This document shows positions 1,510-32,322 of a stretch of DNA of 32,322 nucleotides, piece by piece (the first letter of the stretch is position 1; the number at the start of each line of letters is the position of its first letter). The notes under the pieces are model-generated. The model saw nothing but the letters and a program-made list of their open reading frames with translations. It was not told the origin of the DNA and did not search any database. Source of the DNA: Acidobacteriota bacterium (GTDB lineage Bacteria > Acidobacteriota > Terriglobia > Acidiferrales > UBA7541); NCBI GenBank assembly GCA_003225295.1, contig QHYZ01000039.1:1-32322 (forward strand). The letters are read 5' to 3'. A program made the position numbers and the translations under genes.

Positions 1510-2346
1510 GTGAAAAAATCTATCGGCGACAACATGATTCCGAAGGGTTGGAGCTTCGAGCAGGGACTCGAACTCGTAAAGAAGGCAGGATACGATGGCA
1601 TCGAGCTCTGGCTCGGTCACGTTCCGTGGTTTCAGATGAGCACTACAGACGCGCAGGTAAGCGAGTTGCGCCGCAAAGTGGAAAACGCCGGCTTGGTGGT
1701 CTCAAACGTTTCGACTGGCCTCCATTGGGATACTCCGCTCTCGGCCCGCGACCCTAACGTACGCGCCAAGGCGATTCGCATTGTAGAGCGCCAGCTAGAG
1801 ACGGCTCAGCTCCTCGGTTGTGACGCCATACTTGTGGTAACCGGGCTTGTGACCCAAGAAGTTCCTTACAACGAGGTCTACCAACGCTGCCTGGACGGGA
1901 TGAAACAGCTAGCGCCACTCGCAGCAAAGGCGCAAGTAAGGATCGGTTGTGAAAATTGCAATTCGGAGCAACGCTTCTTGCTGACGCCGCGAGAATTCTG
2001 GACGTTTCTCAACGATGTGAATAGTCCCTTCGTCGGCATTCATCTTGATGTGGGGAACATTCACGACACTGGATTCGCCGAGCAGTGGATTGAGATACAT
2101 GGACCGCGCATCACGCGCATCCATCTAAAGGATGTCCTGAAAAAGCGCGGCCGATGCTGCGACACTGTGTATACGAGCCTTTTCATTGGCGATAACAACT
2201 GGCCCGCCATCAGGGCCGCACTAACCAAAGTCGGCTACGACGGCTGGTTGATCGCGGAAATGGAAGCGCGCTATCGGTACGCGCACGACCAGCAGTTTTA
2301 TGACACCGCCGCTGATATGGACCGCCTCGTTTCGGGCAGGCTATGA
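1510..2346 (+). CDS. Sugar phosphate isomerase/epimerase (AP endonuclease 2-like TIM barrel)
   Basis: A 278-residue cytoplasmic TIM-barrel protein of the xylose isomerase-like/AP endonuclease family 2 group. The start is taken as GTG 1510 because the family's usual N-terminus (KKSIGDNMIPKGWSFEQGL, then KKAGYDGIELWLG) begins there. The metal-binding residues are visible in order: Glu in IGCENCNSEQ, Asp in GIHLDVGNIHD, His in RIHLKDV, and the C-terminal Glu in WLIAEMEARY. Such enzymes isomerise, epimerise or, in 3-keto-sugar pathways, cleave keto-sugars using a divalent metal. The next gene starts 20 nt downstream, consistent with one operon with the GMC dehydrogenase genes. The exact substrate cannot be read from sequence. 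Confidence 0.88.
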   Translation: MKKSIGDNMIPKGWSFEQGLELVKKAGYDGIELWLGHVPWFQMSTTDAQVSELRRKVENAGLVVSNVSTGLHWDTPLSARDPNVRAKAIRIVERQLETAQLLGCDAILVVTGLVTQEVPYNEVYQRCLDGMKQLAPLAAKAQVRIGCENCNSEQRFLLTPREFWTFLNDVNSPFVGIHLDVGNIHDTGFAEQWIEIHGPRITRIHLKDVLKKRGRCCDTVYTSLFIGDNNWPAIRAALTKVGYDGWLIAEMEARYRYAHDQQFYDTAADMDRLVSGRL

Positions 2347-2366
2347 AGTAAACGCTGAGGGCCTGA

Positions 2367-3146
2367 ATGAAAATCTCGCGCCGAAATTTTCTGTCATCTG
2401 TGACCGCCTCGACCGGCACCCTGTTGTCAATCCGGTTAATGGGGTTGGATTGGTTTGATTCTCGACCTGAACCCGAACTCCATTGCCTCGTTCTCGACTT
2501 GCAGTCGCATTGTGTCCTTCGCGAATCGTTGCACGGATATCAAGCGGCACTCGCCGGCGAATGTCATTGTCGCTCGGAAGCTAGGATCGATTCACGGCGG
2601 CGCTGTGCGATGGCACTTGTTCCGGGCCTCGGAACATTGGACCCCGCGATAGCGCAGACACTGTTGGATTTAATGGAGGGTGGGACTCATCTTTTGTTGG
2701 AATCCGGCGCGGGATTTTTAAGCCCGGCGGAATTTTCTGCTCACCAGAGAATGCTACATCGTTATTTCGACCTCGGAGTCGGGCCGCCCATCGATCTTTG
2801 GGCCGGAAACTCTCGCGCCGACTGTCGTTTTGACCATCGTCCCGGGTCTCATCAGAGAAAGGAGTCGGACAGTGGGAAATCCGTTCCTTACGTCAACTAC
2901 CTTTGGCCGCGCGAAACCATAGTCAGGGACTTCAGTCGCGTGGTTCCTGTGTTGTCGAAAGGCGAAGATATAATCGGCCGGATAGGACCATTACCAGTCG
3001 CGTCGAAGAAGCGTCTGGCGAACGGAACACTTATTTTTCTCGGATCTCCGTTGGGACCCGCACTCCGCGCTGGCGACCTTGAAGCTCGGTCCTGGCTCGG
3101 CTCGGTTACGTCGGCCGAAACTGTGGCTGATTTCGCGCGAGGTTAG
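2367..3146 (+). CDS. Tat-exported protein with GAT-like fold, function unknown
   Basis: A 259-residue protein with an N-terminal twin-arginine signal (MKISRRNFLSS followed by a short hydrophobic stretch), so it should be exported folded. The middle (LVPGLGTLDPAIAQTLLDLM, then GGTHLLLESGAGFL) and the end (GTLIFLGSPLGPAL) resemble the alternating strands and glycine turns of class I glutamine-amidotransferase-like or trimerisation-like domains; no Cys nucleophile is obvious. It has a weak GAGGG ribosome site. Its place between a sugar isomerase and a GMC dehydrogenase suggests a part in the same periplasmic sugar conversion, but this is inference. Confidence 0.65.
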   Translation: MKISRRNFLSSVTASTGTLLSIRLMGLDWFDSRPEPELHCLVLDLQSHCVLRESLHGYQAALAGECHCRSEARIDSRRRCAMALVPGLGTLDPAIAQTLLDLMEGGTHLLLESGAGFLSPAEFSAHQRMLHRYFDLGVGPPIDLWAGNSRADCRFDHRPGSHQRKESDSGKSVPYVNYLWPRETIVRDFSRVVPVLSKGEDIIGRIGPLPVASKKRLANGTLIFLGSPLGPALRAGDLEARSWLGSVTSAETVADFARG

Positions 3147-3455
3147 CTCCATTCTCTGCGAAAGTCTCCGCTCGCACTACTTACGTTCCCCACATAGCGA
3201 CTGGCTCCGTTTCCACTGGGGTTTGCCCCACGAACAACCGGCCTCAGCGAAAGACGTGCAACCGTTCATCGAACGTCTGCCGCCACACGACAGTAGTTTG
3301 CTGGCTCTGAGGTTCCACTGGACAAAGTAGGCGCTCGGCTGTTGAATGCGGCCACGTTTTTTAATTTCGGCGTGCAGCTGTCTTTGCTATAGTCGGCGTC
3401 TTGCAACGCGCAATCCGCCAACTTGCTTCTTAGGGATTGCGGGGAGGTTTTCGGG
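3147..3455. other. Intergenic region upstream of GMC dehydrogenase
   Basis: About 310 nt. A plus-strand open frame overlaps the end of the previous gene and runs to 3330, but it has no ribosome site or recognisable domain. A GGGGAGG ribosome site at 3441-3447 precedes the GMC start at 3456. No clear promoter or terminator was recognised. Confidence 0.4.
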
Positions 3456-5213
3456 ATGGCGGAACCACAGTTAGATCTCAGCAAGACTTACGACGCGATA
3501 GTCGTTGGATCAGGGGCCGCTGGCGGGATGGCGGCACATGTCCTCACTAGCCACGGCATGCAGGTGCTTCTGCTCGAGGCAGGAAAGAAACTGCCCATCG
3601 AGCAGGAATTGCGCTCGATGGAGTGGCCCTACGACAACGCCCATAGGGGATACCTTCCGCCGGAGTCGCATTCGCTGACGTTCAACGAGTACACCATTCG
3701 CAATCCGCCCTATGGCGCGGGCTCTGAGAAGGCCAAGCATCTCCACAGCTACGTGGGCAGCAGCGACTACGTCAAGAATATTGTTGTCGACGAGCGTGAG
3801 CATCCTTTCACGGGCACGAACTACGCTTGGGTTCGCGCGCGGTGCCTCGGCGGAAAAACGAATATCTGGGGGCGGCTCGCGCTGCGCCTCTCCGACTACG
3901 ACTTCAAGGCCAAAAGCCGCGACGGCTTTGGCGAGGATTGGCCCATCAGCTACGGCGACATCGCCCCCTATTACGACAAAGTGGATTTGCACCTCGGCAT
4001 CATGGGTGTGAAGGAGAATTTGCCCCATCTTCCCGACGGCATATTTCAGCGACCTCAAAAACTGAACTGTGCCGAAGTCACTCTGAAGCAGAGTCTGCAG
4101 AAAATGGGGCGGGTGCTGACACAGTATCGCGCCGGCGTCACCAGCGAAGGCCTGAAGCACAATAAATATCGCAGCCGTTGCTATGGGCGCGGCGCTTGCG
4201 AGCGCAAGGGCGGCTGCGACATTCACGCGGCGTTCGATTCGCCCACCGGCTTGATCTATCCCGCGATGGACACCGGGAGTTTGACGCTACGCACCAATGC
4301 GGTCGTGCGGGAAGTCACCGTCGATCCGGAAACCGGCAAAGCGAGCGGCGTGCAATTTATCGATTCGCAGACCATGAAGGATTATGCCGTGCACGCCAAG
4401 GTTGTCGTCCTCGCGGCGTCCACTCTTGAATCCGCGCGCCTGCTGTTGCTCTCCAAGTCGCGGCTTTATCCAAAGGGGTTGGCGAATTCCAGCGGCCACG
4501 TCGGCCACAATTTTTGCGAACACCTGATGGGACCCGGAGTCACCGGCCGGGCGAAAGATCTGGTTGCCAAGCCGTCAACCCTGGACGACGGCCGGCCTGG
4601 CGGCTTCTATCTGACCAGGTTTCGCAACCTTTCAGAGAAGCACCCGAAATTCATCCGCGGCTACGGGTTTGAAGGCGGCAGCGGCTGCGGCATGTTTCCA
4701 CACGGGACCGACGTGCACGGTTTCGGCGCATCCTTCAAAGAAGAAGTCCGCAAAAATCAGGGTGCCTACATCAGTATGGGCGCTTTCGGCGAGGTCCTGG
4801 CGCGCTACGAAAATTACGTGGACATTGATCCCGTGGTAAGAGACAAATGGGGCATTCCTGCGTTGCGTTTTCACTACAAGTTCGGCGACAACGAGCACCG
4901 CATGGCCGAGGACATGAAAGAGACCTCGCAAGAGATGTTCGAGGCCGCGGGATTCGAGATCGTGCGCGTCAGCAGCCGCGTGCTTACCGAGGGCTGGTCC
5001 ATTCATGAACTCGGCACGGCGCGCATGGGAACCGATCCCAAGACTTCCGTTCTCAATCAGTTTCAGCAGTCGCATGACGTGAAGAATCTGTTTGTCGTCG
5101 ACGGTAGCGCATTCGTCAATGCCAGTTGCCAGAATCCGACGTGGACCATTATGTCCTTGTGCTGGCGCTCCTGCGACTACCTCGCGGACGAATTTCGCAA
5201 AGGGAACTTGTAG
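3456..5213 (+). CDS. GMC-family flavoprotein dehydrogenase, large subunit
   Basis: A 585-residue FAD-dependent glucose-methanol-choline oxidoreductase. The ADP-binding motif VGSGAAGG is at about residues 17-24, with LLLEAGKKLP after it. The family C-terminus is clear: HELGTARMG at about 517 supplies the active-site His, and SCQNPTW at about 558-564 its Asn partner. A Cys-rich insert (RCYGRGACERKGGCD) is of the kind found in membrane-coupled sugar dehydrogenases and glucoside 3-dehydrogenases. The start is ATG 3456, 8 nt after GGGGAGG, rather than the upstream TTG at 3423. There is no signal peptide; the small subunit 7 nt downstream has the Tat signal, so the pair is probably exported together. 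Likely role: periplasmic oxidation of a sugar or glycoside. Confidence 0.93.
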   Translation: MAEPQLDLSKTYDAIVVGSGAAGGMAAHVLTSHGMQVLLLEAGKKLPIEQELRSMEWPYDNAHRGYLPPESHSLTFNEYTIRNPPYGAGSEKAKHLHSYVGSSDYVKNIVVDEREHPFTGTNYAWVRARCLGGKTNIWGRLALRLSDYDFKAKSRDGFGEDWPISYGDIAPYYDKVDLHLGIMGVKENLPHLPDGIFQRPQKLNCAEVTLKQSLQKMGRVLTQYRAGVTSEGLKHNKYRSRCYGRGACERKGGCDIHAAFDSPTGLIYPAMDTGSLTLRTNAVVREVTVDPETGKASGVQFIDSQTMKDYAVHAKVVVLAASTLESARLLLLSKSRLYPKGLANSSGHVGHNFCEHLMGPGVTGRAKDLVAKPSTLDDGRPGGFYLTRFRNLSEKHPKFIRGYGFEGGSGCGMFPHGTDVHGFGASFKEEVRKNQGAYISMGAFGEVLARYENYVDIDPVVRDKWGIPALRFHYKFGDNEHRMAEDMKETSQEMFEAAGFEIVRVSSRVLTEGWSIHELGTARMGTDPKTSVLNQFQQSHDVKNLFVVDGSAFVNASCQNPTWTIMSLCWRSCDYLADEFRKGNL

Positions 5214-5220
5214 GTGAAGC

Positions 5221-5838
5221 ATGTCTAACAATAATCCTATTGATCTGCGGCAAGATCGCCGGGAATGGCTGAAAACCTCGGCCGCCATAGTCGGCGCCTC
5301 ATTACTACCTCTACCAGCCATAACTCAGGAACAGCCGCATGCGGAGACCGCGTCGGCCAAGCCTGTAGGTAAGTCTTCGGAAAACAATTTCCCCTCTCGC
5401 TTCTTCACTCCCTTGCAACACGCGCTGGTCGAGGAATTGTCAGAAACGATCATTCCCGCCGACGACCATTCTGGCGGGGCTAAAGCTGCGAAAGTTGCTG
5501 ACTTCATCGACCAGTTACTGGGCGAGACCTATGATGACAATCAGAAGGCGCTGTGGCGCGAGGGCTTGCGCCTCGTTGACCTGATGAGCCGGCACTACAG
5601 CGGAAAGCCTTTCCTCGAGGCTCGCCCCGAGGAAAGAGTCGCGGTTCTCAAAGTGCTTTCTGACAACGATCACATGACCGATCTGCCCGAAGTTCGCTTC
5701 TTCATTGAGTTGAAGCGCCTCACGGTGCGTGGCTATTACACCTCCAAAATCGGCATTCACGATGAGCTCGAATACAAAGGTAATCGAATTCTTCAGGAGT
5801 ACGTGGGCTGCGACGACCAGGGGCCGGCGAATTCTTGA
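5221..5838 (+). CDS. Gluconate 2-dehydrogenase subunit 3-like Tat protein (GMC small subunit)
   Basis: A 205-residue protein with a twin-arginine leader (QDRREWLKTSAAIVGASLL) and the body of the gluconate 2-dehydrogenase subunit 3 family: FTPLQHALVEELSETIIPAD near residues 60-80, then a helical core and a C-terminal VRGYYTSKIGIHDELEYKG. In known complexes this small subunit carries the FAD subunit through the Tat system and is needed for its maturation. The gene starts 7 nt after the GMC stop, with AGGTGAAG as ribosome site, so the two are almost certainly translated together. No cytochrome c subunit follows, so the electron acceptor is unknown. Confidence 0.9.
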   Translation: MSNNNPIDLRQDRREWLKTSAAIVGASLLPLPAITQEQPHAETASAKPVGKSSENNFPSRFFTPLQHALVEELSETIIPADDHSGGAKAAKVADFIDQLLGETYDDNQKALWREGLRLVDLMSRHYSGKPFLEARPEERVAVLKVLSDNDHMTDLPEVRFFIELKRLTVRGYYTSKIGIHDELEYKGNRILQEYVGCDDQGPANS

Positions 5839-5850
5839 TTTTGGAGCGCG

Positions 5851-5887
5851 GCGGTCTTGTTTATCCTGAGCGAAGTCGAAGGACCGC
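5851..5887. repeat. REP-like intergenic palindrome
   Basis: GCGGTC (5851-5856) and GACCGC (5882-5887) can pair around a core containing TCCTGAGCGAAGTCGAAGGA, itself largely palindromic. This core is a familiar dispersed intergenic element in many bacterial genomes. It lies between the small-subunit gene and the Gfo/Idh gene, where it could act as an mRNA-stabilising or terminating hairpin. Only one copy is in this window. Confidence 0.55.
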
Positions 5888-5938
5888 ACTTTTAACGGTC
5901 TTTGAAACGACTCGCGTGACCTTTTGATCGGAGTGCCT

Positions 5939-7060
5939 ATGACGAACGGCAGGGTGAAAGTCGGCATCATCGGGTCGCAATTTCAGGCAGGCATTCACGC
6001 CGCGTCCTTGCAAATCATGCCGCATGAGGCGGAAGTCGTCGCGATCGCCTCTCCGACTCCTGGCAACGCCGCTGCGCTCGCAAAGCGATTCAGAATTCCG
6101 CGCGTATTCACCGACTACCGCGAGATGCTGCGAGAGCGGGACATCGAGATGGTCACTATCGCCGCCCCAAACAGCCTGCACGCTAAGATGACCAGGGACA
6201 TTGCCGCGGCTGGCAAGCACATCGTTTGTGAAAAACCTTTGGCCATGACCATTGCCGAAGGGGAGGCGATGATCGCTGCGGCGAAGCGCCACGGCGTCCT
6301 CCTCATGTACGGCGAAGAGCTTTTCTTCACGCCGAAATATTTGAAGGCCAAGGAAATGGCCGATGCCGGCGCTTTCGGCAAAGTTTATCTCATCAAGCAA
6401 AGCGAAAAGCATTTTGGGCCGCACAGCGCATGGTTCTGGGACGTGAACCGATCCGGTGGCGGCGCACTGATGGATCTTGGGTGTCACGGAATCGCTTTCT
6501 GCTACTGGTTTCTTGGACGCTCGCCGATCAAGTCGGTCTATTGTCAAATGGGCACGCACGTTCATGGCGAAAAGACCAAGGCCGAGGACGATTCTCTGTG
6601 CATTCTCGAATTCGCCAATGGTGCGGTCGGACTGGTGGAAAATAGCTGGGCGCGCCGCGGCGGGATGGACGACCGCATCGAAGTTTTCGGCGAAGCCGGC
6701 TGCTCTTACGCCAATCTCCACATGGGCAATTCGCTGCCGACCTACAGTGAAAACGGATACGGCTACGCAGTCGAAAAAGCTCCCACAACGAAAGGTTGGA
6801 CGTATCCCGTTTTCGAGGAACTCTGGAATTACGGCACGCCGCAAGAACTGACCCACTTCGCGCACTGCGTGCGCGGCAAAGAGACTCCGCAAGCTACGGG
6901 CGAAGATGGCTTGGTCGTCCTTCGCGCAATTTATGCCGGCTATGCGTCCGCTGGCGAAGGCCGCAAGATCGCGCTGCCATACCAACCGCCGCCCGAAGTG
7001 AAAAATCCGATCGATCTTTGGCTCAACGGTGCGGCTCGCCAACAGACTGCGCCGCATTGA
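5939..7060 (+). CDS. Gfo/Idh/MocA-family NAD(P)-dependent oxidoreductase
   Basis: A 373-residue protein with an N-terminal Rossmann fold (VKVGIIGSQFQAGIHAASL) and the family's EKP motif in HIVCEKPLAM at about residues 98-100. The second domain carries GGGALMDLGCHGIAF, which supplies the Asp and His of the active site. The family reduces or oxidises sugars and inositols, and several members act on 3-keto-glycosides. The start is ATG 5939 (6 nt after GGAG) and not the in-frame TTG at 5924. It lies about 100 nt after the GMC small subunit with a hairpin between. It probably handles the keto-sugar after uptake; the substrate is inferred only from context. Confidence 0.92.
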   Translation: MTNGRVKVGIIGSQFQAGIHAASLQIMPHEAEVVAIASPTPGNAAALAKRFRIPRVFTDYREMLRERDIEMVTIAAPNSLHAKMTRDIAAAGKHIVCEKPLAMTIAEGEAMIAAAKRHGVLLMYGEELFFTPKYLKAKEMADAGAFGKVYLIKQSEKHFGPHSAWFWDVNRSGGGALMDLGCHGIAFCYWFLGRSPIKSVYCQMGTHVHGEKTKAEDDSLCILEFANGAVGLVENSWARRGGMDDRIEVFGEAGCSYANLHMGNSLPTYSENGYGYAVEKAPTTKGWTYPVFEELWNYGTPQELTHFAHCVRGKETPQATGEDGLVVLRAIYAGYASAGEGRKIALPYQPPPEVKNPIDLWLNGAARQQTAPH

Positions 7061-7063
7061 AGT

Positions 7064-7087
7064 AGGACAGACATTCTTGTCTGTCCT
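7064..7087. terminator. Perfect 10-bp hairpin after the Gfo/Idh gene
   Basis: AGGACAGACA (7064-7073), loop TTCT and TGTCTGTCCT (7078-7087) form a perfect stem, followed by CTTTCCTT. It begins 4 nt after the Gfo/Idh stop. The T tract is imperfect, so it may instead be a dispersed palindrome; it could reduce read-through into the permease gene. Confidence 0.5.
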
Positions 7088-7143
7088 CTTTCCTTCAACT
7101 ATGGCACGCTTGCATCCGCTTCCAGTTTTCACGAGGTGATTCC

Positions 7144-8379
7144 ATGCATTTCTCGATGAGACTGCGTCTCTCCATGATGATGTTCCTGGAGTATTTCATT
7201 TGGGGCGCGTGGTACGTAACCCTAGGGACTTGGCTCGGCCGGCAGTTGCACTTTTCGGGCGAGGAGATTGGTTTGGCCGCTGGCACCACTGCATTGGGCG
7301 CCGTGGTTTCGCCGTTCCTCGTTGGCCTGATGGCCGATGAACTATTCGCCAATCAACGGCTGCTCGCGGCGGTGCACGGCATCGGCGGTATTCTCCTCTG
7401 GTTTGCTTCCACTCAAAAAGCGTTCGGCGCGATGTACGCAGTCTTGCTCATCTATTCGCTTTGCTACATGCCCACGATGGCGCTGACCAATGCGTTGGCG
7501 TTTCGGCAGATGAAGGATCCAAAGCAGGATTTCGGATCGATTCGCGTGCTGGGCACAGCTGGGTGGATTGTTGCAGGGCTGCTCATCGGTTACCTCCGCG
7601 TGGAGGCGACGGCCATTCCTATTCGTGTCGCAGGCGCAGCGTCTATATTGATGGCAGTCTACAGTCTGACGTTGCCGCACACGCCGCCTTTACGCGCTGC
7701 ACACGGATTCAAGCTCAGCAATATTTTTCCTGCTGAAGCCTTCACACTATTCAAAGACAGAAACTTTTCAGTTTTTGCTCTGGCTTCGTTCCTGATTTGC
7801 ATCCCACTGCAGTTCTACTACACCTTTACGAATCCCTTTCTGAACGAAATCGGAGTGCAAAACGCCGCGGGCAAAATGACCATGGGCCAGATGTCGGAGT
7901 TGCTCTTCATGGTAACGCTGCCCTGGTTTTTTCGCCGGATTGGCGTGAAGAATACGCTCGTGCTGGGCATGTTCGCCTGGGTCGTGCGCTACGTTTGCTT
8001 CGGCACCGGGAATAGCGGCAGCCTGGCGTGGCTACTCTATCTGGGGATTGTTCTCCACGGAGTGTGCTATGACTTTTTTTTCGTGAGCGGGCAAGTTTAC
8101 GTGGATCAAAAGGCGCCCGCGGCGTTGCGCGCCGCAGCGCAAGGCCTGATCACATTCATCACCTATGGGATCGGCATGTTCATCGGATCGTGGATTTGTG
8201 GCCGTGTTGTGGACGCCTACGTGAAATCTGCACCGACAGGCAACGTTCTGCATGATTGGCGTTCCATCTGGATGGTGCCAGCCATCGCGTCTGCGGTAGT
8301 CCTGCTGTTCTTCTGGGCTGGATTCCGGCGTGAAGAACGCACGCCCGAGGAACGTGCACCGGTCGCTGAACTACCGTGA
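7144..8379 (+). CDS. MFS permease, nucleoside:H+ symporter (NupG/XapB)-like
   Basis: A 411-residue integral membrane protein with about 12 hydrophobic segments. The N-terminus (MMMFLEYFIWGAWYVTLGTW) is the signature of the NupG/XapB nucleoside symporter family. Later features also fit: GFIRVLGT-like text (FGSIRVLGTAGWIVAGLLIG), a central loop and PAALRAAAQGLITFITYGIG. In Acidobacteriota and Bacteroidota such permeases often sit beside sugar isomerases and Gfo/Idh enzymes, so the substrate here may be a sugar or glycoside rather than a nucleoside. The ribosome site GAGGTGA lies 5 nt before the ATG. It is the last gene of the plus-strand cluster. Confidence 0.88.
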   Translation: MHFSMRLRLSMMMFLEYFIWGAWYVTLGTWLGRQLHFSGEEIGLAAGTTALGAVVSPFLVGLMADELFANQRLLAAVHGIGGILLWFASTQKAFGAMYAVLLIYSLCYMPTMALTNALAFRQMKDPKQDFGSIRVLGTAGWIVAGLLIGYLRVEATAIPIRVAGAASILMAVYSLTLPHTPPLRAAHGFKLSNIFPAEAFTLFKDRNFSVFALASFLICIPLQFYYTFTNPFLNEIGVQNAAGKMTMGQMSELLFMVTLPWFFRRIGVKNTLVLGMFAWVVRYVCFGTGNSGSLAWLLYLGIVLHGVCYDFFFVSGQVYVDQKAPAALRAAAQGLITFITYGIGMFIGSWICGRVVDAYVKSAPTGNVLHDWRSIWMVPAIASAVVLLFFWAGFRREERTPEERAPVAELP

Positions 8380-12164: not shown

Positions 12165-14603
12165 TCATTCATACCTCAGCGCTACCAATGGGTCGACACG
12201 CATCGCGCGTCGCGCTGGCACCCAGCAGGCGAGAAAACCGACCAACAGGAGCAGCACAACAACGGAGAAGAGCGTCAGCGGATCGTGCGGCGAAACTCCC
12301 CAGAGTTGATTGGACAGTATTCGGGCGATCGCAAGGCTGGCGGCTAAGCCGATTCCGATGCCCAGAAGGATTAACCGCGCACCGAAGCGGAAGACCAAAA
12401 GGAGGACGTCTGCCGATGCAGCGCCGAGGGCCTTACGCACACCGATTTCGTGGGTTCGTTGCGAGACGGCGTTTGAGACGACGCCGTAAACTCCCACGAC
12501 GGCTAAGGTCAGCCCCAAGGCGGCGAAAACCGCGAATAGGACAACACTGAAGCGAGGGCCAGCGTACTCCCAATCGTTCAGGAGCGAGTTTACGGTGCGC
12601 ACGTCAGTGACGGGCTGGTTGGGGTCGAGCGCGTAGACCTGCTCGGTAACTGCTTTTGCGAGGGAGGTTGGGTCAGTGTTCGTCAAGACCGCGAGGTAAT
12701 TGGCCGTGCCGGTGATTGTGTAGGGGATATACAGCTCGGGTGCAATCTCGCTGGTGAGGCCGCGGTTCACCGCGTCTTTAACGACACCCACAATCTGGAA
12801 AGCGTTATCCGTGATATTGGAGGGAGCGGTGGCGAGACGCGGAATACTGGCAAGGCGGCCGAGCGGGTCGCTATTTGGAAGATACCTGCGAACGAAACTC
12901 TGATTAGCAATGGCCAAGTGGCTACGAGAGGCAAGTTCGTTGTCGGTGAAGAGACGTCCCTCGACGAGGGCAATGCCGAACACTTTGGTGTAGTCGCGGC
13001 TTACTTGATGGATGACGACTGGACTAGTGTCCGTCTGAGTGACGCCTGAAATTTCAACGGAGGTCTCCATGCCTCCGAAGAAAGGGTGCATTCCGGCGTT
13101 GATCCCCGCCGCGTCAACGCCTGGCAAGTGCTCGACCCGCCGAAGCAACTCCTCGAAAAAAGCAGTACGGTGCGCGGCATCGGCGTAACGCTGAGTTGAG
13201 AGGGGCACTCGCAAGGTGAGAAGGCGGTCGGCGCGAATACCGAGATTTACATTTTGGATGGCGAGCACGGTACGAATCATCAGAGTCGCCCCGACGAGCA
13301 GTACGAGCGAAAGGGCGACTTCGGCGACGACCATGGCGTTACTTGCGAATACCTGACGAATTCCGGCGCCGATGCCCCGGCCGCTCTCCTTGAGAGCGGC
13401 GACAAGTTGTCCGCGGCTGACATGCAGCGCGGGCGTCAGACCGAACACGAGTGCAGTGAAGAAGGAGATACCGAGGCTAAACAGGAGGACCGGCCGGTCG
13501 ATGACGATTTGGGACTCGTCCGGAATCGAGCCCGGAGGCACGACGGCAATGATGGCGCGCAAGACGCCGAAAGCCATGACCGCTCCGAGAGCGCCTGCGA
13601 GGGTTGAAAGCAACAGGCTTTCGGTCAGCAACTGACGGACGAGTCGCGCGCGCGTGGCTCCGAGCGAAGCCCGCAACGCGATTTCGCGTTGGCGAGAGAT
13701 TGCGCGAGAGAGCAGGAGGTTCGAGACGTTGGCGCAGGCGATGAGCAACAGCAGGCCGACGGCGCCGAAAAGAATCCATAACACCTCGCGGATGCCGCTC
13801 GGAAAGGTTTCTTTAAAGGAAAGCAGACCAACGCGCCATTTTTCGGGAAAGGCCGTAGGTTCGCGCTGTTTCAGGTCGGCAATGATGGGAAGTAGGTCAG
13901 GTTCGGATTTTGCGGGCGTGACTCCTGGCTTGAGGCGACCGAGCAAATGCACGTAACGTACGCCTTCCGGGAGTTGTCCGCGATGGAAGATTGTGGGCAG
14001 ATAGACATCGGCACCACGGAACATAAAGCGCGGCGGCATCACCCCGATAATTGTTCGAGTGGTTTCGTTGAGAGGCATCTGCCTCCCGAGCACGGTGGGA
14101 TCGGCGCCGAACTGGCGATTCCAGAACTTGTAGCCCAAAACCGCGACGGATGGAGCCCCTGGCACGGCATCCGCTGGCGTAGGAGTGCGGCCGATGAGGG
14201 GGGGCACGCCCATCACCTCAAAGGCGTTCATGGTGCAGACATTGCCGCGAAGGCGCTGTGGCTCGCCTTGACTGCTCCACAAGACGTCACTGATGGTGGA
14301 AGCAATGACACCTTCAAAAATCGTATTGCGCTCAGCGATTTCCAGGAATTGATCGACGGTATAACCGACGCGGTATCCGGACTGGTCGGGGGACCAGATT
14401 TTCACACTCATAAGACTGTCCACGTCGCGGTAAGGAAAGGGATTCAGGACCACACCGTAGATAACGCTGTACATGGCCGTCGCCGCCATGATGCCGAGTG
14501 CCAGCGAGAGTATGGCAATCGCGCTGAAGCCAGGAGATTTGCGGAGTATGCGCACGCCATAACGAAAGTCTTGGAGGAAACTTTGTATGATCGGTTCACT
14601 CAT
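12165..14603 (-). CDS. Orphan ABC transporter permease, ADOP/MacB-FtsX type
   Basis: An 812-residue membrane protein of the acidobacterial duplicated orphan permease type. After QDFRYGVRILRKSPGFSAIA comes helix 1, then a MacB periplasmic core domain (about residues 40-270), FtsX domain 1 (ANVSNLLLSRAISRQREIAL, LRASLGATRARLVRQLLTES), a second periplasmic domain, and FtsX domain 2 ending in ARRAMRVDPLVALRYE. No ATPase gene is adjacent. Relatives move substrates across or out of the inner membrane or transmit mechanical force with a partner ATPase; here the substrate is unknown. The start may be ATG 14603 or the in-frame ATG at 14633; neither has a strong ribosome site. The usual PadR-linked N-terminal extension is absent. 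Confidence 0.9.
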   Translation of the reverse strand: MSEPIIQSFLQDFRYGVRILRKSPGFSAIAILSLALGIMAATAMYSVIYGVVLNPFPYRDVDSLMSVKIWSPDQSGYRVGYTVDQFLEIAERNTIFEGVIASTISDVLWSSQGEPQRLRGNVCTMNAFEVMGVPPLIGRTPTPADAVPGAPSVAVLGYKFWNRQFGADPTVLGRQMPLNETTRTIIGVMPPRFMFRGADVYLPTIFHRGQLPEGVRYVHLLGRLKPGVTPAKSEPDLLPIIADLKQREPTAFPEKWRVGLLSFKETFPSGIREVLWILFGAVGLLLLIACANVSNLLLSRAISRQREIALRASLGATRARLVRQLLTESLLLSTLAGALGAVMAFGVLRAIIAVVPPGSIPDESQIVIDRPVLLFSLGISFFTALVFGLTPALHVSRGQLVAALKESGRGIGAGIRQVFASNAMVVAEVALSLVLLVGATLMIRTVLAIQNVNLGIRADRLLTLRVPLSTQRYADAAHRTAFFEELLRRVEHLPGVDAAGINAGMHPFFGGMETSVEISGVTQTDTSPVVIHQVSRDYTKVFGIALVEGRLFTDNELASRSHLAIANQSFVRRYLPNSDPLGRLASIPRLATAPSNITDNAFQIVGVVKDAVNRGLTSEIAPELYIPYTITGTANYLAVLTNTDPTSLAKAVTEQVYALDPNQPVTDVRTVNSLLNDWEYAGPRFSVVLFAVFAALGLTLAVVGVYGVVSNAVSQRTHEIGVRKALGAASADVLLLVFRFGARLILLGIGIGLAASLAIARILSNQLWGVSPHDPLTLFSVVVLLLLVGFLACWVPARRAMRVDPLVALRYE

Positions 14604-14734
14604 TTCGGTTGCGCCAGTTCTTATGCGGGGCATGCGACCATTTTACTGCGGTCTGCCCAAGCTGTCAGTGCCCGATAAGAGTGCTAAGCGGAAAAGTGTG
14701 TGACGTATATTCCGGTCTGAAGAACTGCGAACAT

Positions 14735-14866
14735 GTTGAACAATCGTTTTCTGCCAAGTTGCAGAAGAGTCATAAGGGCGGATGGACCTATGTGGTCTGG
14801 CAGAATTCGGTCAAGTTTCTCGGCACACGTGGCCTGAAGTTGGCTAAAAATGGCAACGAAAGATTA
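14735..14866 (+). pseudogene. DUF1905-like N-terminal fragment
   Basis: Between two minus-strand ADOP genes the plus strand encodes VEQSFSAKLQKSHKGGWTYV immediately followed by VWQNSVKFLGTRGLKLAKNG. This matches the opening of DUF1905 proteins (consensus like F-x-A-x-L, KGGWTYVVWP, FFGTRGLVKV). The match ends there and the frame runs out at 14905 without the rest of the barrel, so it is a truncated remnant of about 44 residues. Confidence 0.55.
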
Positions 14867-14895
14867 TATGAAAAAGGATGCGTAACGTGTGCGCT

Positions 14896-16861
14896 TTACT
14901 CGTAGCGCAGCGCCACCATGGGATCAACCTTCACCGCGCGCCGAGCCGGGATGTAACTCGCGAGGACGGCAACACTGAGTAAGAGTCCTGGAACGCCAAG
15001 GAAAGCGACCGGATCGACCGGGCTGATGCCATACAAAAAACGCAAGGAGACATCTCCGGGCAAAATCGTTGTTAGCGCCCAAGCGACCGCGGCGCAGCCA
15101 GCGATGCCGATCAGCGCACCGATCACCACAGGTCTCATGGCCTGGCGCAGAACAAGAGCCATGACATCGCGATTGTCTGCTCCAAGCGCCATGCGGATTC
15201 CGATTTCGCGCACACGCCGGCTGACAACGTAGGACACCAAGCCATAGACGCCCATGGCGGCCAGGAGCAAGGCGAGGCCGCTGAGGAAACCAGATAAAGT
15301 CGAGAAGATTCGACCCGGCGTGAGCCAGGGTGTGAGATTTTCTTCGAGATTGACGATTTCCACGGCCAGTTCTGGATCGAGCGCGGCGACGGTTGCCCGG
15401 AGGGTCTGTGTTGTAGGCGAACCAGCTGTGCCAGAAATCAATAAGCGGAGGTCCAACTGTTGCTTGGGACCAGCCGGAAGATAAGCGTAAATGTTATCGG
15501 AGCGGCCCAAAAACGACACGTGCGCATCCTTCGCCACGCCAACAACCTCATAGTCGGCGTCCAGACGAATGGTCTTGCCGATGGGATCCTCGCTCGGCCA
15601 CAGGCGACGTGCGGTTGATTCCACGAGGATCGCCACGGGCGCGCCGGTTTGACCCTCCGCCTCCGTAAAATTGCGGCCGCGCACGATGGAAATTCCCAAT
15701 AATGGGAAGAATGCGGGCGAAACGTAGTTGTACTCGACACCGACGTGGTCTTCGCGGCCAGGGATGGAAAGGTCGGTAGCACGGTGATTGTCGTCCAGCG
15801 GAACCGCGCTGGCTTGGGCTGCGGCGTTCACTCCCGGAAGCGCGGCGATTCGCTGGAGCAATTGCCGCTGCAGCGCTTCGGCGCGCTGATTGTCGTAACC
15901 TGCTCCATTGAGATCCAAGGCGATGGCCGCGACATTCTTCATGCGAAAACCGGGGTCGACGGTCTTTGCCCGGTGAAGCCCACGCAGCAACAGCCCCGCG
16001 GCAAGCAACAAGACCATGCAAGCGGCCACTTGCGCCGCTACGAGCGCGCCGCGCAAGCGATTTCTCGAGCGAGGCTTGGCTTCGGCGTCGGCACTTTCTC
16101 CCTTCATCGCGAAGGTGAGATCCGCTCGCGAAGACTGAAGTGCCGGCACCAAACCAAAAGCAATCCCAGTGAGCAGCGTCAGGCCCAGGGCATAAGCCAG
16201 AACGTGGAGGTCGGCACTGATGTTGAGGGCCACGGGCCAGTAGCCTGCGGAGACGTTGGATTGAAGAAATCGCACCAGGCCCGTTGTAGACCAGAACGAG
16301 ATAAGCGAGCCCAGCAATCCGGCGAGGAGTGCAACCAAAAGATTTTCAGTAAGCAGCTGCTGGATGAGACGTCCTCGGCTGGCGCCCATTGCGAGCCTCC
16401 CGGCAATTTCTTTGCGGCGCCCGGTGGCACGCGCGAGCAGCAGACTAGCGACGTTCGACGACTTCTTCTGCATGAGGAACCGGGAGCAGTCGCAAAGCGG
16501 CGCCATTCAAAATCGTGAAAATACCAGTGTTTAGGCCGATGCCGAGCACCAGAGTAAGCACCGCGACGGCGGTGAACCCCGGATTCTTTCGCAGGGCGCG
16601 TGCACCAAATCGCAGGTCACTCAAGAAATTCTCCAGCAGCGGTAAGCCGCGGCGGGCGCGATAATTCTCTTTGGTTTGCTCCATGCCGCCGAGTTTGATC
16701 CGAGCGTCACGCCGCGCTTCGCCCAAACTCATACCTGCGTGGAGATTTTCCTCAACGTGCATCAGGACATGGGCTTCCATCTCCTCGGCGAGGTCTCGGT
16801 CGCGTCCTTCACTGCCAAATAAGGCGACCAGCCGCAATAGCCAAGCGCGCAGTGACCTCAT
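14896..16861 (-). pseudogene. ADOP ABC permease with internal deletion and frame change
   Basis: The 5' part (16861 to about 16455) encodes the classic ADOP start: MRSLRAWLLRLVALFGSEGR, EEMEAHVLMHVEENL, KLGGMEQTKENYR, then RKNPGFTAVAVLTLVLGIGL and the first helix, ending RLLPVPHAEEVV. At about 16455 the sequence jumps, in another frame, to NVASLLLARATGRRKEIAGR, which belongs after the first periplasmic domain. From there to 14896 the protein is intact: FtsX 1, second periplasmic domain, and FtsX 2 ending PARRAVKVDPMVALRYE. The first periplasmic core and part of the next helix (roughly 200-260 residues) are missing. The 5' start has a GAGGAG site. A 536-residue product from within 16506 is conceivable but unlikely to work. 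Confidence 0.85.
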
Positions 16862-21706: not shown

Positions 21707-22159
21707 ATGAGCACTGAAGCAATCAAGTCACCAGAAATCGATCCGATTATGGAGCGCCTCGAAGATCAAATAGGTTGGTATGACCGAAAGAGCATGGCCA
21801 ACCAGCGATGCTTTAAGTCGATAAAGATGGTTGAGATTACGGCTGCAGCAATCATCCCGTTCTTGTCGGCGTTTAGTTTTCCGGAAATGATGTGGGCGAC
21901 CGGCGGACTGGGCGTTTTGATTACAGTGCTGGAGGGGATCTTGCACCTCAACCAGTACCAACAGAATTGGATAGCATATCGTTCAACTTGTGAATGTCTT
22001 AAGCATGAGAAGTACGTTTACCTCGGGAAGGCTTCGCCTTACGTGAATGCCGCAGATCCTCATGCTCTGCTGGCGGAGAGGGTCGAGTCGCTGGTTTCTC
22101 AGGAACATGCGAAATGGGCGTCGGTGCAGCAGCAGGAGGCTAAAGCGAAAACCGCGTGA
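21707..22159 (+). CDS. DUF4231 (SLATT-superfamily-like) two-helix membrane protein
   Basis: A 150-residue protein that fits DUF4231 along its length: RLEDQIGWYDRKSMANQR, then two hydrophobic helices (about residues 47-62 and 65-83), then HLNQYQQNWIAYRSTCECLK, HEKYVYLGKASPYV and VESLVSQEHAKWASV. The WYDxKS start and the NWIxYRSTxExLKxEKxxYL stretch are family hallmarks. DUF4231 belongs with the SLATT group of predicted pore-forming effectors often paired with nucleotide-signal enzymes in bacterial defence. No such enzyme is next to it here; the only co-oriented neighbour is an unknown 85-residue protein. The ribosome site is weak. Confidence 0.82.
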   Translation: MSTEAIKSPEIDPIMERLEDQIGWYDRKSMANQRCFKSIKMVEITAAAIIPFLSAFSFPEMMWATGGLGVLITVLEGILHLNQYQQNWIAYRSTCECLKHEKYVYLGKASPYVNAADPHALLAERVESLVSQEHAKWASVQQQEAKAKTA

Positions 22160-30527: not shown

Positions 30528-32225
30528 CTAGATCTCGCCTTTGCGGAAACGGCCAATCAGATGATCGCATGCGCGGACCGTCAACGCCATCATGGTAAGG
30601 GTCGGGTTCTGGCACGCCGACGACACAAAGCTCGCTCCGTCCATCACGAACAAATTTTTCACGTCGTGCGCCTGGTTGAACGCATTGAGCACTGACTTCT
30701 TCGGATCGTTCCCCATGCGGGCTGTTCCCAGTTCGTGTATGGCCATTCCCGGCATTTCGACACCCGCTTGCACGCGGATATCTTTGGCGCCGGCCGCTTC
30801 CAACATTTCCGCCGCCGTGGCGCCGGCATCCTCCATGAGCGCAGCTTCGTTGTCGCCGTGCGTCATGCTAATGCGCAAAGCAGGAATGCCCCAGGCATCT
30901 TTTAGATCGCGGTCGATCTCGATGTAATTGTCCCACCGGGCCAGCGATTCACCGAAAGCTCCGAGGGAAATCCCGTACTCGCCTTCTTTCACAGCCTTCT
31001 TGAGCGACGCTCCGTAGCCTTCGGCACTGAAGTTGAATCCAGCCTCGGCCCCGCCCTGGTAACCATAGCCACGTATGAACCGCGAATGCCTTTTGCTCGA
31101 AGGGGTGTTCCGGAAGCGAGGGACGTAAATCCCGTTGGGACGTTCCGGCTCGTTCGCATTCGGAAGAGTTTTGAATTCTGGCAGACGACCCGACGCTCCC
31201 GCGCCTACGACGTGATCCATCAAATAATGGCCCAGCGCGCCGCTCGAATTCGCCAGTCCATTTGGGTATTCCCGAGTGGACGAGTTCAGCAAGATGCGGG
31301 TGGACTCCAATGCCTGCGCGCAAAGGATCACCGCTTTTCCGCGGACCTCCTTCACTTGCCGCGTCAAGCGATCCACGTAAGTCACACCGCGCGTTTTGTT
31401 TGGCTCCGTGTCCATGTCCACATGGCTTACCACGGCATTGGTAAACAGCGTGCAGTTCCCGGAGGCCAGCGCGTCCTTGACGGTCGTAAACGGGCTGCTG
31501 AAGTAAGAAAACGTGCTGCACCCGCGTTCACAAGGCCCGCAATAATGGCAAGCGAGTCGTCCATTGTGATTTTGCGTCAGGATCGCCGTGCGCCCGATCG
31601 TCACTGTGTGCCCGAACTTCGCTTTGACGCGTGCTCTGAGCTGAACTTCTCCGCAGCTCATTTTCATTGGCGGGAGAAACTGCCCGTCGGGCAGCATCTC
31701 ATTTCCCTCCGTCGCTCCGCTGATACCTACGTACCGCTCCACGATGTCGTAATACGGTGCAAGATCGGCATAGCCAATCGGCCAGTCGTCGCCATACCCG
31801 TCGCGGCCCGCGGCCTTAAAATCGTTATCGCTCAGCCTGTAACTCTGACGGCCCCACACCAGCGATCGCCCACCGAGGATGCGCAGCCGCTGCCATGTAA
31901 ATGGTTTGCCGGGCGGCGTGCTGTACGGATTCTCGAGGTCATTCACAAACCATTCGTAGTTGTATTCCATGCACGCGTAGCACTGCTTTTGCACCGGCCG
32001 CGTGCGCACCACCTCCGGCGAGTGATCGCGGTATTTCAGCTTGTAAGACGGCATGTGCTCAGTAAACTCTTTCGGACTAACCGCGCGCCCGGCTTCGAGC
32101 AACGCAACTTTCAGCCCCGCCTCCCCAAGTTGTTTCGCGGCCCAGCCGCCGGTGGCTCCCGATCCCACAACGACCGCATCGTAAGTTGTCAGCAAAGGGT
32201 CTTGCGCCATGTTGGTCCCGCTCAC
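30528..32225 (-). CDS. GMC-family flavoprotein dehydrogenase, large subunit (second locus)
   Basis: A 565-residue FAD-dependent GMC oxidoreductase, paralogous to the one at 3456-5213. Seen: VGSGATGGWAAKQL near the N-terminus, LLEAGRAV, ILGGRSLVWGRQSYRLSD, a Cys cluster CHYCGPCERGC, HELGTARMGNDP with the catalytic His, and SACQNPTLTMMAL with its Asn partner. The start is placed at GTG 32225: it overlaps the upstream stop as GTGA and follows AAGGGG at about 7 nt; ATG 32210 is the alternative. No signal peptide, so it probably uses the Tat signal of the small subunit encoded just upstream. Likely a periplasmic sugar or polyol dehydrogenase. Confidence 0.93.
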   Translation of the reverse strand: MSGTNMAQDPLLTTYDAVVVGSGATGGWAAKQLGEAGLKVALLEAGRAVSPKEFTEHMPSYKLKYRDHSPEVVRTRPVQKQCYACMEYNYEWFVNDLENPYSTPPGKPFTWQRLRILGGRSLVWGRQSYRLSDNDFKAAGRDGYGDDWPIGYADLAPYYDIVERYVGISGATEGNEMLPDGQFLPPMKMSCGEVQLRARVKAKFGHTVTIGRTAILTQNHNGRLACHYCGPCERGCSTFSYFSSPFTTVKDALASGNCTLFTNAVVSHVDMDTEPNKTRGVTYVDRLTRQVKEVRGKAVILCAQALESTRILLNSSTREYPNGLANSSGALGHYLMDHVVGAGASGRLPEFKTLPNANEPERPNGIYVPRFRNTPSSKRHSRFIRGYGYQGGAEAGFNFSAEGYGASLKKAVKEGEYGISLGAFGESLARWDNYIEIDRDLKDAWGIPALRISMTHGDNEAALMEDAGATAAEMLEAAGAKDIRVQAGVEMPGMAIHELGTARMGNDPKKSVLNAFNQAHDVKNLFVMDGASFVSSACQNPTLTMMALTVRACDHLIGRFRKGEI

Positions 32226-32322
32226 TTGTGATCCCCTTCTGGGTGTTCGCAGCCTTGATAAGGCCCGTGCGCAAACGCTCCGTCCCACCCCAGTTCTTTC
32301 TCGCCGATCTGCGAGCTGTAGT
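32222..32322 (-). CDS. Gluconate 2-dehydrogenase subunit 3-like protein, partial C-terminus
   Basis: The minus strand from the right edge reads YSSQIGEKELGWDGAFAHGP then YQGCEHPEGDHK and stops at 32222. The YYTSxIGxxELGYxG ending is typical of subunit 3 of gluconate 2-dehydrogenase-like complexes, and it matches the equivalent end of the 5221-5838 protein (GYYTSKIGIHDELEYKG). Its stop overlaps the start of the GMC gene by 4 nt (GTGA), so the two are translationally coupled. The Tat signal would lie outside the window. Confidence 0.7.
   Translation of the reverse strand, partial: YSSQIGEKELGWDGAFAHGPYQGCEHPEGDHK

Follow-up and report, generated by a model that had tools for sequence, protein, structure and literature searches.

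The window analysed here is one entire contig of 32,322 nucleotides (nt) (QHYZ01000039.1) from an Acidobacteriota genome of 8.13 Mb, which is divided over 385 contigs and 96% complete. At positions 1510-8379 it carries a run of six genes on the + strand, the first two of which, an isomerase-like gene (iso) and a gene for an exported protein (tat), recur as a pair in other genomes. All six open reading frames (ORFs) were confirmed, with consecutive gaps of 20, 309, 7, 100 and 83 nt, and Pfam names five of the six genes, tat being the one without a match. The iso gene (1510-2346) encodes a signal-less, xylose-isomerase-like TIM-barrel protein, and tat (2367-3146) encodes a protein of an undescribed family with a twin-arginine translocation (Tat) signal and a predicted fold that is glutamine amidotransferase (GAT)-like and resembles a domain of GH42 enzymes. 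After a gap of 309 nt (3147-3455), the widest of the run, follow the catalytic subunit of a GMC dehydrogenase with no signal peptide seen (3456-5213), a small subunit of the hitchhiker type with a Tat signal, sub3 (5221-5838), a Gfo/Idh/MocA oxidoreductase, Gfo (5939-7060), and a NupG-family MFS permease (7144-8379).

Two modules in the six-gene run

The run consists of two modules, A (iso and tat) and B (GMC, sub3, Gfo and NupG). Identical gene order was found in a congener (G018, locus L021), with identities of 91, 59, 92, 79, 92 and 88% for iso, tat, GMC, sub3, Gfo and NupG, respectively, and a gap of 312 nt between the modules, while the flanking genes differ from those of the window on both sides. 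As G018 keeps the same genes in the same order, the run is more than a chance arrangement. In a sample of 399 genomes drawn evenly from the class, iso (cut-off E<=1e-80) was found in 22 genomes as 23 copies, and the surroundings of all 23 were labelled. All six genes stand together only in the window and G018. Module B occurs without iso-tat in congeners G033, at identities of 88, 77, 90 and 72%, and G025, where NupG is cut by the contig end; neither genome has iso or tat, the two 399-genome class samples used being taken as identical. The GMC-sub3 pair alone is present in G016, G031 and G006, and iso-tat is present without GMC at most iso loci. An earlier note on this DNA had described six co-directional genes with short gaps as one candidate cluster for keto-sugar catabolism. 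The ORFs are as it gave them, but the 309-nt gap separates modules that occur apart elsewhere, and in the gene-neighbourhood comparison it was the modules that were kept, not the six-gene set, which goes halfway to refuting the note's reading by the standard that it set itself.

The presence of the full set in two species only, and the width of the gap, would be expected if the two modules were unrelated, had no function in common and had come together in the window by chance or only recently. This is rather improbable, as GMC adjoins iso in further families and Gfo accompanies iso-tat in a second phylum (see below). GMC was found near iso also in G131, G143, G311 and G338, and within 7 kb of iso at at least five of the 22 non-window copies, as compared with 0.57 expected from the 3-17 GMC copies per genome; with congeners G131 and G143 counted once, four cases are independent (P about 0.003). 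Close GMC orthologues (E<=1e-230) are present in 7/22 genomes with iso and in 13/377 others (Fisher 2.8e-5).

The iso-tat pair

At 15 of the 23 iso copies tat lies directly 3' of iso, with a gap of -1 to 33 nt in 14. The 15 include G311, judged from an open frame that starts at the iso stop though the profile match begins later, and G383, where the tat match is weak (27 bits). In G097 tat is 2.1 kb from iso, and the remaining seven copies (G226, G202, G205, G253, G338, the second copy of G160, and G105, at a contig edge) are without tat. A short twin-Arg stretch after iso in G226 is perhaps a remnant. Genome-wide searches of G202, G205, G253, G338, G226 and G105 found no tat, the G105 search giving one 19.8-bit match in a long ORF.

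A scan of 84,980 species, each represented by a single genome, with one tat peptide pattern gave 23 tat loci in metagenome-assembled genomes (MAGs) of Acidobacteriota and Gemmatimonadota. Twenty lie directly behind iso, two 2.1-2.5 kb behind it and one at a contig edge; counted among the 20 is L074 (1-7555), where iso is broken, residues 1-110 alone being left and these in two frames, and an intact-looking tat follows. In 200 Gemmatimonadota, iso was found in six genomes, all six with tat. In G024 (L029) tat is decayed, locus L024/L087 is cut by a contig end, and L090 and L091 were left out of row set A3. A same-genus MAG contig, L027 (G030:C187), has 10 differences in 3876 bases as compared with window positions 3035-6910, so reflects recent transfer, the same population or shared binning, and was not counted as independent of the window. 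A literature search, with subscription journals mostly outside its coverage, recognised no description of iso-tat. The pair is an undescribed, tightly coupled unit of an isomerase and an exported protein. Two proposed patterns were rejected. Iso-tat and PF01261 genes with a Tat signal do not exclude each other, since both are present in L022 and L061, and neither do tat and DUF1080 (PF06439), of which the genome of the window has five copies.

The iso product matches PF01261 (155.9 bits), and its best NCBIfam model is L-ribulose-5-phosphate 3-epimerase at 74.6 bits, under the cut-off of 200. The nearest solved chain is UlaE (3cqh). Residues E148, D180, H205 and E250, invariant in 16 aligned rows, align with tagatose 3-epimerase 8xix at what we take to be metal-site positions. 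The protein therefore shares with UlaE and the D-tagatose 3-epimerases the TIM barrel of the PF01261 fold family and these four residues, but scores only about 20 to 75 bits with their models, below every family cut-off. The window iso is 78-83% identical to the aligned Gemmatimonadota rows. An invariant Cys stands two residues past the putative first metal ligand, where the Agrobacterium OGE enzyme (AtOGE) has its catalytic His, the position being matched by sequence order only.

The 259-residue tat product matched no Pfam model, including that of the ThuA family (PF06283), even at E 10, and no NCBIfam model at E 0.1. It is about 36-42% identical to the aligned Gemmatimonadota rows. In all 21 rows of the tat alignment the twin Arg is invariant, as are G57, P86, G106, E112, P174, Y175, W180, P181, R187, F189 and D237. 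No Cys occupies an invariant or nearly invariant column, and tat is without the conserved catalytic Cys expected of class I glutamine amidotransferases. An AlphaFold2 model built from the 21 rows (mean local confidence, pLDDT, 82.2; template-modelling score, pTM, 0.79) comprises a signal region and a single domain, with no catalytic TIM barrel. Its best match by VIA-align was residues 432-650 of 7vl0_B, one domain of a beta-1,2-glucosyltransferase (Z 18.5), followed by GH164 (Z 16.9) and GH42 (Z 16.5), with root-mean-square deviations of 2.9-3.7 over 178-192 residues for these domains, as compared with Z about 12-14 for HisH, Pdx2 and other amidotransferases. Among solved structures, the predicted fold most resembles the amidotransferase-like domain that GH42-type glycosidases and their relatives carry (Z 15-18), a domain that we take to be non-catalytic. 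The earlier note's suggestion of a GAT-like exported protein agrees with the model and its structural matches.

Profile searches gave weak matches, some of them to the same domain: 12 rows in the Protein Data Bank, including GH42-type enzymes (best E 0.064), and, in 297 genomes across the phylum, eight matches besides the window, of which the one inspected is a 781-aa protein (L093) that we read as GH42-like. In contrast to the GH42-type glycosidases, tat stands alone as a Tat-signal protein and has no catalytic barrel. ThuA presumably also has a GAT-like fold; the 50 structural matches listed for tat include no structure of ThuA, which excludes nothing. The earlier note's statement that the exported protein has no place in known versions of the pathway holds for the sequence family of tat, but the available text of one study (PMC7404187) reports ThuA as part of a 3-keto pathway.

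Module B and the second phylum

The GMC protein matches GMC_oxred_N (56.7 bits) and GMC_oxred_C (74.1 bits), above cut-off, and its nearest solved chains are the FAD glucose dehydrogenase 6a2u_B and the large subunit of fructose dehydrogenase. Its C242, C248 and C254 align with the 3Fe-4S ligands Cys212, Cys218 and Cys222 of the Burkholderia cepacia FAD glucose dehydrogenase (BcGDH), and the active-site His/Asn pair is kept. The likeness to BcGDH, as far as that system is described in the available text (PMC6719666), comprises the GMC family, the three cysteines, the His/Asn pair and the Tat-signal partner; the differences are the low similarity of the GMC protein (134 bits over 585 aa) and the lack of a multihaem subunit in the window run. 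According to the same text, the BcGDH small subunit acts as a Tat hitchhiker (PMC6719666). The sub3 protein, which adjoins GMC and has a twin-Arg start (N-terminus ...DRREWLKTSAAIVGASLL), matches PF13618 at 103.8 bits and had no match among solved chains. Three Gfo/Idh/MocA models (PF01408, PF02894 and PF22725) match Gfo at 89-102 bits; its nearest solved chains, 6jw6 (175 bits) and 6nor (169 bits), are presumably KanD2 and GenD2, aminoglycoside C3'' dehydrogenases. GenD2 is reported to oxidise C3'' in the accessible part of its description (PMC4340712). The permease matches PF03825 (391.6 bits), and scores 394.7 bits with the nucleoside permease subfamily TIGR00889, the cut-off of which is 446.1. 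Behind GMC-sub3-Gfo, SIS and ROK genes follow at L132 and ROK and NagB-like deaminase genes at L165, hinting at amino sugars.

The contig carries a second GMC oxidoreductase (30531-32321, - strand), 47% identical to the first and cut by the contig end. Elsewhere in the window are two ADOP-family MacB/FtsX permeases (12165-16506, - strand), the second without the N-terminal part of the model, and a DUF4231/SLATT-like protein with two transmembrane segments (21707-22159, + strand; PF14015, PF18181), of a family linked by name to SMODS/SLOG effectors.

Window-type Gfo (63-70% identity) is present in 13/13 Gemmatimonadota with iso-tat, two of the matches being partial at contig ends, and in 2/20 without iso, one of these with in-frame stops (Fisher 1.8e-7, ignoring kinship). 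Hence the wider association is that of iso, tat and Gfo, whereas GMC is lineage-bound. In G664, Gfo lies 0.7 kb from iso in divergent orientation; G669, G671 and G694 have both genes on one contig, 7-9 kb apart, and in the remaining genomes Gfo is on another contig. PF13618 was rejected as a marker of iso-tat Gemmatimonadota, being little informative by its mere presence (11/11 with iso-tat, 34/40 without), as was the presence of three or more PF13618 matches (11/11 versus 8/40), which is confounded by kinship. Window-type Gfo adjoins a GH130 protein in L157, L158, L159 (where Gfo was placed via a search for the window type) and L164, all four of which have a PQQ dehydrogenase; the GH130 copy of L079 scores 488 bits with a beta-1,2-mannosidase model.

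The neighbours of iso-tat outside the window bring in another possible substrate. In L083, L106 and L107/L158 a gene for a PIG-L de-N-acetylase is followed by iso, tat and a gene for a fused solute-binding/permease protein, and in L106 and L107 the ends of these genes overlap. PIG-L stands beside iso-tat in five Gemmatimonadota loci. SIS and PfkB genes lie beside iso-tat in L023, L025, L028 and L064, and in the first three of these SIS-PfkB-amidohydrolase-YjbQ runs (the name YjbQ being our assumption) point to amino sugars. L023 and L025 also contain an APC permease, and six Gemmatimonadota loci have one next to window-type Gfo; L028 includes a GH2 protein with a glucosaminidase-type Ig domain, and in G682 a NagB-like deaminase and a ROK kinase follow GMC-sub3-Gfo. 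Iso-tat might therefore serve the use of amino sugars or Amadori compounds, in an frl-like set of APC permease, SIS protein, PfkB kinase and PF01261 epimerase, its meeting with the GMC module being incidental. We consider this unlikely, as the FrlA model scores 88 bits against 155 for a general amino acid transporter, the fructoselysine kinase model 86 against 128 and the epimerase model 27 against 75, and the window cluster has neither APC nor PIG-L.

A candidate keto-sugar pathway

A keto-sugar pathway is likely because Gfo is nearest to 6jw6 and 6nor and GMC keeps the three 3Fe-4S cysteines. Our tentative reading, held at somewhat less than even confidence, is that the run is a composite keto-sugar locus in which module A handles or rearranges the keto-sugar of module B. 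The GMC flavoprotein, carried through the Tat system by the signal-bearing sub3, would oxidise a periplasmic sugar or glycoside to a keto-sugar, most probably at C3. The permease would import the keto-sugar or a fragment of it, and Gfo in the cytoplasm would reduce it or oxidise a related sugar. The UlaE/tagatose-3-epimerase-like iso would rearrange the keto-sugar in an epimerase or isomerase reaction. Outside, tat may handle the same substrate, most likely by binding it through the invariant Glu, Tyr, Trp, Arg and Asp. Module A is an independent two-gene unit, the products of which would be made as a pair. The computations show the gene content, the division into modules, the coupling of iso to tat, the association of window-type Gfo with the pair and the predicted fold of tat; C3 chemistry, the reaction of iso and binding by tat are proposals built on these. 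The compartments proposed are those suggested by the signals.

Module B looks like a variant of the known keto-glycoside systems of the LacA/LacC type, in which we take LacA to be the GMC protein and LacC the small subunit. In the available text on the Caulobacter lactose 3-dehydrogenase cluster (PMC9007349), LacABC with a transporter, epimerases and a reductase make up a pathway of this type, in a cluster with DUF1080. The GMC and small subunits, transporter, epimerases and reductase are common to both loci, but the window run has no cytochrome gene, its contig has no DUF1080 and iso-tat stands there instead. The levoglucosan (LgdA/B1/B2/C) and Agrobacterium OGE pathways, as far as their available texts describe them (PMC7676230, PMC10628242), likewise use Gfo/Idh proteins and annotated sugar phosphate isomerases on 3-keto sugars, but oxidise with NAD throughout and, unlike the window, include no GMC and no tat. 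A Pseudoalteromonas plasmid carries a run of Gfo, isomerase, MFS, DUF1080, GMC, small subunit and isomerase genes, at identities to the window of 38% for GMC, 25% for Gfo and 21% for the isomerase; no tat was found at this locus. The earlier note's list of a periplasmic dehydrogenase pair, an importer and two sugar enzymes is borne out by the Tat-dependent GMC/small-subunit pair, the permease, two cytoplasmic-looking enzymes and this related list of parts.

On the plasmid, DUF1080 stands beside GMC where the window has tat. This, the lack of DUF1080 on the window contig and the invariant E112, Y175, W180, R187 and D237 would suit a periplasmic enzyme that acts on the keto-glycoside and replaces the DUF1080 hydrolase of known clusters. 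Such a role for tat is doubtful: tat is tied to iso rather than to GMC, which most iso-tat loci do not have nearby, its nearest structural matches are presumably non-catalytic domains, and the DUF1080 genes on other contigs could do this work.

A role in transport may also be considered. A signal-less gene followed by a coupled small Tat-signal gene is the layout and order of both iso-tat and GMC-sub3 in this operon, and sub3 is believed to carry GMC. GAT folds presumably pair with TIM barrels, as in HisH-HisF and Pdx, the GAT proteins of which are among the structural matches of tat at Z 12-13. The precedent for a hitchhiker is the BcGDH small subunit, in the available text (PMC6719666). Next to the close GMC orthologues at L125 and L132 stands instead a PF01261 protein that has a twin-Arg start of its own, and the same holds at L130 and L066, there beside iso. 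The GAT-fold tat could thus bind the folded iso in the cytoplasm and carry this TIM-barrel isomerase or lyase to the periplasm, where it would act on the product of the dehydrogenase, so that oxidation and rearrangement would both be periplasmic and iso-tat would be a new kind of Tat hitchhiker pair. We give this only a small chance. The iso proteins of the seven tat-less loci are also signal-less, five of those genomes being without tat anywhere; Tat-exported PF01261 proteins co-occur with iso-tat in L022 and L061 and are thus not simple replacements; and the Tat starts of many cofactor-free proteins at iso-tat loci indicate that use of Tat is not special there. A joint model of iso and tat (pLDDT 64, pTM 0.47) decides nothing, iso itself being poorly predicted from 29 rows in which the iso rows are 70-90% alike.

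Several points weigh against the composite keto-sugar locus. Seven of the 23 iso copies show no tat, and iso can hence do without it, while the substrate-binding role suggested for tat is drawn from conserved polar residues only. There is no cytochrome subunit among the six genes, and a Pfam scan limited to 19 ORFs of the window found no cytochrome c subunit either; the contig has none of the five DUF1080 copies of the genome. The association tests ignore phylogeny. The Gemmatimonadota with iso-tat are soil MAGs related to each other, as compared with 20 controls spread over the phylum, and with E<=1e-60 in place of identity Gfo matches occur in 6/20 of these controls.

If the proposed reading is true, the periplasmic keto-sugar pathway of these uncultured soil bacteria has a part that is absent from known versions, and iso-tat marks a keto-sugar pathway in two phyla. 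Should tat merely bind sugar, it would be an undescribed yet ordinary accessory protein. On the proposed reading, iso-tat would also bear on how the non-hydrolytic breakdown of sugars is organised across the membrane.

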